A stretch of DNA of 17,493 nt from Pseudaestuariivita sp. (GTDB lineage: Bacteria > Pseudomonadota > Alphaproteobacteria > Rhodobacterales > Rhodobacteraceae): the NCBI GenBank assembly GCA_020629995.1, contig JAHDCH010000023.1, positions 1-17,493 of the forward strand. Direction: 5' to 3'. The translations under genes and the position numbers were made by a program. Shown piece by piece: positions 15,985-17,493 of the stretch. Every line of letters begins with the position of its first letter. Position 1 is the stretch's first letter. The notes beneath the pieces were generated by a model that saw only the letters and a list, made by a program, of their open reading frames with translations, did no database searches and was not told the DNA's origin.

Positions 15985-17493
15985 TCAGCCGCATTTGGAA
16001 TGGCCGCAGGAGCTGCAGGTCATGCACCCTTCGGACATGTGCATCGTGTACTGGCCGCAATTGGGGCAGGCCTTGCCACGATTGCCGTCTAGGTTGACGA
16101 CCTGCGCACGCGGATCTTCCTTGAGGCCCATCCCCTCGCCTTCGAGAAAACCGGTGGCAACCATGTGCCGTTCGATCACGCCGCCGATGGCCGCAAGGAT
16201 TGAAGGGATGTACTTGCCCTCGACCCAGGCACCGCCGCGCGGGTCGAACACGGCTTTCAGCTCTTCGACCACAAAGGTCACGTCCCCGCCGCGCCGGAAC
16301 ACCGCCGAGATCATCCGCGTCAGCGCGACGGTCCAGGCAAAATGCTCCATGTTCTTGGAGTTGATGAACACCTCGAACGGGCGCCGCTGGGTGCCCTGCA
16401 CGATGTCGTTGATCGTGATGTAGATCGCATGCTCGCTGTCGGGCCACTTGAGCTTGTAGGTCTGCCCCTCCAGCGCATTGGGCCGGTCGAGCGGCTCGGA
16501 GATGTAGACAACATCTGCTGCATTGGCATCGACGACGACCTCGGTCTCCGAGGGCTGTCCCCGGCCGCGGGTGGGGGTGAAGCCCCCGCCCGGGGGGGCG
16601 GTCGGGGGCTGCCCGGCGGTGCCGCCGGGCTGGTCACCTTCACCGAAGAGCAGCCAGCCGGGGGAGACGTTCAGTGCCGTCGCGAAATCTTCGATATTTG
16701 GAATCGTCTTTTGAGCGCCACTTTCAGCCTTGGAAATTGCAGCAGCAGAGGTACTCGCTAAATCTGCAAGTTGTGCTTGCGTAAGCTGGGCGCGTTTCCT
16801 AGCCCAAATCAGGCGCTCTTCGCGGCTCTGCAGCACCGGCAAGCTATCTTCCTTTTTCTCCTCTGCCACGCTCAGCACCGACCCGGTCACCGCGTTCGGG
16901 CGGTAGGTCGTGCAGCCTTTGCAGCCTTGGTCCCAGGCGGCCATGTACACGTCCTTGAACGCGTCGAACGAAATGTCCTCGGGGCAGTTGATCGTCTTGG
17001 AGATCGACGAGTCGACCCATTTCTGAGCGGCCGCCTGCATCTTGACGTGGTCGAGCGGGGCGAGCGTCTGGGCGTTGACAAAGTGATCGGGCAAGGGCGC
17101 ATCGCCCTTCAGGTCGCGCCACATCTGGACGGCGTAATCGACCACCTCTTCTTCGGTGCGCGAGCCATCCTTTTGCAGGACCTTGCGGGTGTAGGCATAG
17201 GCAAAGACAGGCTCGATGCCCGACGACACGTTCCCGGCGTAAAGCGAGATTGTCCCCGTGGGTGCAATCGAGGTCAGCAGCGCGTTGCGGATGCCATGTT
17301 CGGCAATCGCGGCACGCACATCTTCGTCCATCATCTGCATCGTGCCCGAAGCGAGGTATTTCTCGGCGTCGAACAAAGGAAACGCTCCCTTCTCGCGCGC
17401 CAGATCGACCGACGCGAGGTAGGCCGCGCGGGCGATGGCGTGCAGCCAGGCCTCGGTCTGGGCGGCGGCCTCGTCCGAGCCATAGCGCAGGCC
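15985..17493 (-). CDS. nrdJ: Adenosylcobalamin-dependent ribonucleotide reductase, 3' part, with internal HTH domain
   Basis: The last 502 codons of a class II (vitamin B12-dependent) ribonucleotide reductase, which makes deoxyribonucleotides; the 5' part lies beyond the right edge and the frame is open to base 17493. Seen: AYLASVDLAREKGAFPLFDAEKYLASGTM (upstream of ~17355), the conserved SIAPTGTISLYAGNVSSGIEPVF near 17270-17202, then INCPEDISFDAFKDVYMAAWDQGCKGCTTYRPNAVTGSVLSV (to 16867), the C-terminal NrdJ domain from SEPLDRP (about 16500) through FRRGGDVTFVVEELKAVFDPRGGAW, and a terminal zinc-ribbon-like Cys cluster (CPNC, then CMTCSSCGHSKCG, six Cys). Between 16500 and 16866 is an insert of about 122 residues that includes an Xre-type helix-turn-helix (separate entry). 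The reading frame is intact throughout, so this is not a pseudogene. It is convergent with the VOC gene. No B12 riboswitch can be checked, since the upstream region is outside. Confidence 0.93.
   Translation of the reverse strand, partial: GLRYGSDEAAAQTEAWLHAIARAAYLASVDLAREKGAFPLFDAEKYLASGTMQMMDEDVRAAIAEHGIRNALLTSIAPTGTISLYAGNVSSGIEPVFAYAYTRKVLQKDGSRTEEEVVDYAVQMWRDLKGDAPLPDHFVNAQTLAPLDHVKMQAAAQKWVDSSISKTINCPEDISFDAFKDVYMAAWDQGCKGCTTYRPNAVTGSVLSVAEEKKEDSLPVLQSREERLIWARKRAQLTQAQLADLASTSAAAISKAESGAQKTIPNIEDFATALNVSPGWLLFGEGDQPGGTAGQPPTAPPGGGFTPTRGRGQPSETEVVVDANAADVVYISEPLDRPNALEGQTYKLKWPDSEHAIYITINDIVQGTQRRPFEVFINSKNMEHFAWTVALTRMISAVFRRGGDVTFVVEELKAVFDPRGGAWVEGKYIPSILAAIGGVIERHMVATGFLEGEGMGLKEDPRAQVVNLDGNRGKACPNCGQYTMHMSEGCMTCSSCGHSKCG
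16611..16630. repeat. GC-rich palindrome at the HTH/linker junction in nrdJ
   Basis: GCCCGGCGG (16611-16619) and CCGCCGGGC (16622-16630) are perfect 9-bp complements separated by TG, inside the coding sequence and starting two bases beyond the HTH segment. On the other side the plus strand is very G-rich (GGGTGGGGG, GGGGGGG, GGGGG between 16569 and 16608), encoding the Pro/Gly linker QPPTAPPGGGFTPTRGRGQP. It could be a recombination scar, a slow-folding mRNA structure or simply repeat-rich linker DNA. Confidence 0.6.
16633..16827 (-). other. In-frame Xre/Cro-type helix-turn-helix domain inside nrdJ
   Basis: About 65 residues in frame with nrdJ read SREERLIWARKRAQLTQAQL followed by ADLASTSAAAISKAESGAQK, then TIPNIEDFATALNVSPGWLL and FGEGD. 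This is a textbook HTH_3 pattern: R-x(2,3)-R..LTQ..LA (helices 1-2, TQAQLADLA at 16756-16782), SAAAISKAESG (recognition helix, about 16720-16749), and the closing ALNVSPGWLLFGEG. The segment 16681-16860 has 93 G/C of 180 by hand count (about 52%), lower than the surrounding gene. It sits in the linker between two conserved ribonucleotide reductase segments. Confidence 0.85.

Follow-up and report, generated by a model that had tools for sequence, protein, structure and literature searches.

Both enzymes that carry a fixed DNA-binding domain and specificity modules that are swapped, in restriction enzymes and phages, have been described. PutA-like trigger enzymes carry a DNA-binding domain of their own, which is conserved and has its own operator. 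Type I restriction enzymes swap their target-recognition domains, and the immunity regions of temperate phages are mosaic. We know of no module swap of such a kind inside a metabolic enzyme. The helix-turn-helix (HTH) domain of the regulator BzdR is of the XRE type. The DNA-binding domain of BzdR is reported to be joined to a shikimate-kinase-like domain (PMC3602430).

In Rhodobacteraceae, the short class II enzyme NrdJ, a ribonucleotide reductase (RNR), almost certainly has in its linker a recurrent insertion site for Cro/C1 DNA-binding domains, whose nearest free-standing kin include the CI repressors of temperate phages, and which are gained, lost, and exchanged between almost identical enzymes and mostly have an HTH fold with diverse DNA-contact residues. 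Compared to the described short class II NrdJ (TIGR02504, TSCPD), these enzymes have the same barrel, TSCPD domain, and cysteine-rich tail, and differ by the exchangeable HTH in the linker. In BzdR, the HTH is N-terminal and the protein is a regulator without enzyme activity; in contrast, NrdJ has an internal HTH that is exchanged, and its enzyme part seems to be intact. PutA-like enzymes combine a conserved domain with an operator, whereas the domain in NrdJ is hypervariable and there is no sign of an own operator. As in restriction enzymes and phages, a specificity module is exchanged between constant flanks. The nearest named kin of this module are the CI repressors of temperate phages (434, phi80, S24 family), which have the same HTH fold and, in many cases, a WLLFG-like end. 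CI repressors possess an S24 peptidase/dimerisation domain, whereas the HTH of NrdJ is devoid of it and resides inside an enzyme. Neither known class accommodates a metabolic enzyme whose near-identical copies differ by swapped phage-repressor-type domains. No paper on an HTH in NrdJ was found among the titles and the beginnings of abstracts of the open literature. The available passages on phage RNRs in PMC3653736 do not contain the term DNA-binding.

The linker of the window NrdJ contains a complete HTH domain

The window, i.e. the whole stretch of 17,493 nucleotides that was analyzed, is one entire contig (17.5 kb) from a genome that is 70% complete and distributed over 378 contigs. Its nrdJ gene, which codes for a short-type class II RNR, runs off the contig end. 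The 3' 502 codons and the stop codon are present (positions 15985..17493, minus strand); the 5' end is lost, and the nrdJ promoter and the N-terminal part of NrdJ are off the contig. Barrel, TSCPD domain, and cysteine-rich tail were all found. Pfam assigned residues 1-197 (16903..17493, minus strand) to the C-terminal part of the catalytic barrel (PF02867; 139.2 bits, cut-off 23.9) and residues 345-444 (16162..16461, minus strand) to the TSCPD domain (PF12637). With TIGR02504, the window NrdJ, a copy cut at its 5' end, scored 194.5 bits compared to a cut-off of 399.95. The full-length, HTH-bearing relative L043 reached 587.5 bits with the same model, and a relative without HTH had a similar score (586.3 bits).

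The linker between barrel and TSCPD domain comprises residues 209-331 (VAEEKK ... DVVYI; 16501..16869, minus strand) and is read in frame. According to Pfam and to PDB alignment, the HTH cassette occupies residues about 223-288 (SREERL...FGEGDQ; 16630..16827, minus strand). Residues 230-281 (16651-16806, minus strand) match HTH_3 with 33.9 bits (curated cut-off 23) and an E-value of 3.2e-8. Three PDB matches were obtained, two for the 434 repressor and one for 434 Cro, with E-values of 9e-5 to 4.4e-4. The closest chain is that of the 434 repressor, whose residues 10-65 align with the window HTH (E 9e-5). Both this alignment and the domain search confirm the claim of the preliminary description that the NrdJ linker holds a complete, in-frame HTH of the prophage-repressor type. 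In the alignment, with residue roles as in 434, the window HTH retains the first helix 2 glutamine as well as three residues around helix 3 (isoleucine, glutamate, and glycine). The paired glutamines of the 434 recognition helix are replaced by alanines. A Pfam scan of the window NrdJ detected no C-terminal S24 peptidase/dimerisation domain.

When HTH-length linkers from Rhodobacteraceae were scanned singly, 45 of 50 matched HTH_3 at E<=0.01; the HTH match therefore exceeds chance. Among 170 distinct long linkers, 156 align across most of the HTH model and 14 are below threshold. For the DNA set, the HTH model is reached by 55 of the 65 single long linkers, and 10 fall short. Four of these ten sub-threshold linkers are of an acidic type with a host-like (high) GC3.

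Contact positions of the NrdJ HTHs, which were picked after the DNA contacts of 434, vary more than the scaffold (2.97 vs 1.74 bits). The same contrast is observed in free-standing HTHs (2.41 bits for contact and 1.47 bits for scaffold positions). It therefore marks the kind of domain and not its use in NrdJ. The NrdJ HTHs are less basic: their mean net charge is 1.8 (n=156, a set that omits 14 of the 170 linkers, the acidic type included), compared to 3.2 for free-standing HTHs (n=42, some near-copies among them). These values are bounded by the domain; a contrast of 0.1 vs 3.1 calculated at fixed offsets was exaggerated and was discarded. For six inserts with a GC3 of at least 0.75, the mean charge over a fixed stretch is -3.

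Base composition and constraint of the inserts

The preliminary description had put the GC content of the HTH portion at about 52%, and had suggested the acquisition of a foreign domain. In the window, the HTH stretch, which comprises 68 codons, is indeed lower in GC content than the preceding enzyme part, albeit at a measured 55.9% vs 63.8%. The corresponding GC3 values are 0.56 and 0.84. The foreign character of the domain is borne out by the larger set: GC3 is lower in 63 of 66 inserts, with 0.596 for the HTH stretch vs 0.832 in the same genes. As a control, two enzyme stretches of equal length were compared, which differ in GC3 by 0.01 on average (sd 0.06).

In all 70 HTH pairs with at least 50% identity, pN is lower than pS (median ratio 0.41); the constraint may predate the capture, and picking pairs by identity lowers pN. 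An apparently resident HTH type (L009, L056, L057, L066, L017) has dN values of 0.16-0.28 and dS values of at least 0.85. A core dN of about 0.6 was discarded, because it had been calculated with ungapped indexing across indels.

Distribution among Rhodobacteraceae

Comparison of NrdJ orthologues across the family, a check suggested in the preliminary description, detected an HTH in the linker in at least 48 of 394 Rhodobacteraceae genomes, a set with about one genome per genus that was searched with a profile built from HTH-bearing linkers. At least 46 full-span matches, that of the window included, scored 193.9-269.3 bits, followed by a gap down to 126 bits. The number 48 is composed of the 46 matches above the gap plus G118 (tandem pair) and G009 (broken frame), which were counted by sequence reading. 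It is a lower bound, because matches under the gap could conceal a very divergent HTH. About 88% of the Rhodobacteraceae genomes have no linker HTH. Forty HTH-less linkers, which are the next-best matches and not a random draw, have a length of 20-34 residues. The other genome of the window's genus contains a linker of 30 residues and no HTH.

Among the matches listed for a sample of 289 genomes of Alphaproteobacteria, only that of the window itself (231 bits) exceeds 100 bits, and no HTH was found in eight linkers read from other families. In a collection of named genomes, about half of the best 80 of 583 loci have an HTH. When proteins were searched with the HTH region, 675 matches were obtained; nearly all of the 120 that were listed are HTH-bearing NrdJ, as expected from an HTH-bearing query. 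Six NrdJ loci are located in viral contigs; L144, L145, and L146 have short linkers. From 120 loci, NrdJ was extracted by pattern in 111 cases; seven loci were not NrdJ, and L075 and L090 failed the pattern. Two of the 111, L024 and L032, had no downstream motif; they represent a single gene whose frame is broken. Twelve were duplicates. The 179 NrdJ frames correspond to 147 distinct ones.

A long class II NrdJ was matched in 80 of 80 genomes (77 over the cut-off, three fragments). The short NrdJ is therefore a second enzyme. In L012 (G180), where contigs are fragmented, an HTH-bearing short NrdJ is accompanied by another short NrdJ match, which is of the HTH-less kind.

An assembly error or chimera at 16500-16870 would be compatible with the origin of the window, a lone 17.5-kb contig of a fragmented and incomplete genome, and with the missing HTH in the other genome of the genus. 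However, the same architecture is repeated in dozens of assemblies that are independent of each other, among them those of named isolates. A chimera in the window is therefore very unlikely, to the point of being negligible, and was rejected as an explanation of the architecture.

Different HTH domains reside in near-identical enzymes

Pair statistics were based on 197 NrdJ sequences with full flanks, 159 of which have HTH-length and 38 short linkers; 17 of 214 sequences had no full flanks and were excluded, and the downstream motif was missing in three of the 120 proteins (P0076, P0081, P0083). The similarity of the linker HTHs does not follow that of the enzymes (rho 0.024 over 12,537 pairs below 99% enzyme identity). 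The linker scores behind this rho and behind the following medians span the first 95 residues and thus include some conserved linker ends. The median local linker score is 85 at 85-90% and 78 at 93-96% enzyme identity. It rises to 136 at 96-99% (19 pairs) and to 174 at 99-100% (16 pairs). For eight pairs with identical enzymes, the median is 484.

The clearest example is given by P0004, P0010, and L042. Their enzyme parts are 99.5-99.7% identical and their linker ends near-identical. The HTHs, however, share only 19/56, 12/57, and 15/56 residues (21-34%). They are therefore no closer than any two HTHs, whose median identity is 32%. The HTHs of P0005 and P0021 look similarly unlike, at an enzyme identity of 99.5%; P0021 is under the threshold of the HTH model. 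L044 and L046, which belong to a Marivita-like group, contain different HTHs (16/57 identical); these sit between the two halves of a short linker that is left unbroken in L099, L100, and L104. The foreign domain of the preliminary description thus stands, but not its single acquisition: as different HTHs occur in near-identical enzymes, the insert is a recurrent, exchanged cassette.

In a tree of 147 enzyme parts, in which L238 is a long branch, the presence of the HTH requires at least 39 changes, 17 of which are forced by well-supported branches. With shuffled labels, 48-49 changes are needed, which indicates some clustering of HTH presence. Part of the scattered presence may result from the exchange of whole genes, but not the cases with near-identical flanks. 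Clustering of the 156 HTHs at 60% identity yields 88 groups. In L231 (G118), a single linker of 192 residues contains two HTHs that differ from each other and are arranged in tandem; the second HTH is nearly that of P0118. This tandem is a possible intermediate of exchange.

Free-standing relatives of the HTH domains

The nearest free-standing relatives are phage repressors. The cI protein of a Providencia phage is 47% identical to the window HTH. For an L028-like HTH, 13 records were obtained, among them the cI proteins of a Synechococcus phage (47%) and of phi80 (37%), and S24 repressors of Rhizobium phages (38%). Relatives in viral contigs have identities of 31-50%, and several of them run on into an S24-like domain according to sequence reading. 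For the window HTH, one relative was found in viral contigs (30%). A small repressor-like protein of the viral contig L275 has NPTAVYDILKGKS at the place where the NrdJ proteins of L071 and L014 have NATAVYDILKGKS. The HTH of L071 had no match in phage records. A length-matched search for free-standing HTHs among 5.8 billion proteins yielded 23 candidates for the window HTH and three for the L043 HTH, none of them at E<=1e-3. Altogether, protein, phage-record, and viral-contig searches revealed no close free-standing donor for any of the NrdJ HTHs searched.

Upstream regions of nrdJ genes

Control of its own gene by the HTH, which the preliminary description had considered, found no support. 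NrdR and NrdR-box-like sites are found irrespective of the HTH, and an operator deduced for one HTH type was not seen upstream. All 40 HTH genomes examined (out of 48; G000 is outside the 40) contain NrdR, and so do 39 of 40 HTH-less ones. NrdR-box-like sites, scored over 12 positions with a consensus set from the general NrdR box and from sites seen, precede nrdJ in 30 of 55 genes with HTH and in 47 of 66 without; shuffled controls gave 3 and 9. Exact DnaA boxes were found upstream in 18 of 55 HTH genes and 24 of 66 others (shuffled: 0 and 0). These boxes thus precede about one third of the nrdJ genes (e.g. L043, L085, L110), with or without HTH.

Within four named HTH types of five to seven genes each, no exact palindrome with arms of five or six bases was common to two genes; the groups are small, and the test covers exact arms only. 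The repressor-like protein of L275 sits among repeats of the form TAGGA-N4-TCCTA, and its recognition helix resembles that of the C-type NrdJ HTHs. Upstream of C-type nrdJ, this motif was not found: of nine such genes, seven were suitable for the test, and there the best match was 7-8/10, the same as in controls. L071, which has the closest recognition helix, is outside the seven, and the operator was deduced from a protein that shares about 50% identity with the query. The tests for regulation are weak, and control of the own gene is not supported.

Possible roles of the HTH-NrdJ fusion

Class II NrdJ is a dimer. We tentatively propose that the HTH-NrdJ fusion may be a stolen, non-inducible repressor that gives immunity to phages. 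The fusion would likewise form a dimer and thereby keep a pair of HTHs close together, a task that is fulfilled in CI by the C-terminal domain missing here. The fusion would bind operators of temperate phages with matching specificity and block their lytic genes, which would result in immunity. As phages differ in immunity type, the useful HTH would shift and the cassette would turn over. The insert would be affordable owing to the presence of the second, full-length class II enzyme. A wider version, in which the linker of NrdJ would be a hypervariable locus for immunity, is more doubtful. Here, a recombining, family-wide pool of phage-repressor-type HTHs on a second, dispensable NrdJ would be kept diverse by temperate phages, and each allele would represent immunity to one immunity group. 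The repressor-type kin, the turnover, the foreign codon usage, pN values below pS, the tandem HTHs, and the second enzyme argue for immunity. Against it stands that the searches found no operator, no immune phage, and no close donor, that the HTHs are less basic, that 10 of 65 linkers are under the HTH model, and that about 88% of the genomes are without HTH.

Among possible reasons for the turnover of a phage-repressor-type domain, phages are the likeliest. Stolen immunity is therefore our first choice, with a tolerated insertion close behind and autoregulation further back. A tolerated insertion, which by itself we regard as rather unlikely, would mean that in-frame fragments of phage repressors and REP-like repeats persist for a while in a permissive linker and are then lost, the HTH being idle. 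This is consistent with the scattered presence of the HTH on the enzyme tree, with a linker that also takes a dispersed repeat and, in another family (L204), a simple repeat, with the existence of a second class II enzyme, and with HTHs that are less basic and partly degenerate. However, random capture should bring other pieces as well, whereas 156 of 170 distinct long linkers fit the HTH model; this fraction was obtained with HTH-bearing queries and with only 40 lower-scoring linkers of the family, all short, so that other inserts are maybe under-sampled. The low pN in 70 of 70 pairs and the values of the resident type (dN 0.16-0.28, dS at least 0.85) likewise argue against an idle domain. 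If NrdJ was a trigger enzyme, its HTH would bind the own promoter or dNTP genes and tie expression to the state of the enzyme. We consider this improbable: HTHs differ among near-identical enzymes, all 40 HTH genomes examined contain NrdR, DnaA boxes are found in 18 of 55 vs 24 of 66 genes, no palindrome is common within HTH types, and the deduced C-type operator is at control level upstream. The intact HTH in an enzyme, the precedent of BzdR (PMC3602430), and the somewhat lower frequency of NrdR-like sites upstream of HTH genes (30/55 vs 47/66) are the arguments in its favor.

Just as improbable as a trigger enzyme is a decoy or docking function, in which the HTH would be bound by phage or host proteins that recognize repressors (e.g. 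antirepressors) or would serve as a changeable protein-protein module. The less basic HTHs, the acidic type with its host-like GC3, and the high turnover are in line with such a function; no partner is known, however, and DNA-contact positions are among the most diverse. A tethering of the enzyme to DNA, by which the HTH would concentrate it at replication or repair sites, is very improbable. Apart from the presence of a DNA-binding fold nothing speaks for it; a constant need does not account for differing HTHs in near-identical enzymes, and the HTH is absent from most genomes.

The exchange of HTHs within NrdJ hints at a fast-changing role, e.g. defense against viruses. If the HTH binds phage operators as in the immunity proposal, it would represent an undescribed way in which a host stores immunity without a prophage or an inducible repressor. 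If the HTH is idle, NrdJ would constitute a striking natural insertion test at one site of a protein.

The REP-like repeat and other contents of the linker

The preliminary description had reported a Pro/Gly linker beside the HTH. A Pro/Gly segment is present, but it appears to be itself a dispersed, palindromic REP-like repeat, which is here read in frame as PGGTAGQPPTAPPGGGFTPTRGRGQPS (16550..16630, minus strand) and was recognized by its matches in related genomes. Per genome, 15 matches were found in G010 (mostly partial), eight in G009, seven in G003, and one in the incomplete genome of the window. The repeat recurs behind different HTHs. A regular expression for it matched 6 of 66 NrdJ sequences with HTH, 0 of 81 without, and 37 of 117 proteins, with at least one false match (L056). 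The dispersed repeat may offer homology for the exchange of cassettes.

Several individual sequences deviate from the common architecture. In L024 (G009), the HTH-NrdJ frame is broken inside the repeat. The NrdJ frames of P0076, P0081, and P0083 end right after HTH and repeat, and have neither TSCPD domain nor cysteine tail. P0058, a predicted protein from a short contig, has a match to PF03480 (TRAP-type) beside HTH and TSCPD domain, and is either a chimera or a fusion. In L204 (G667), which belongs to another family, the same NrdJ linker contains a tandem peptide repeat.
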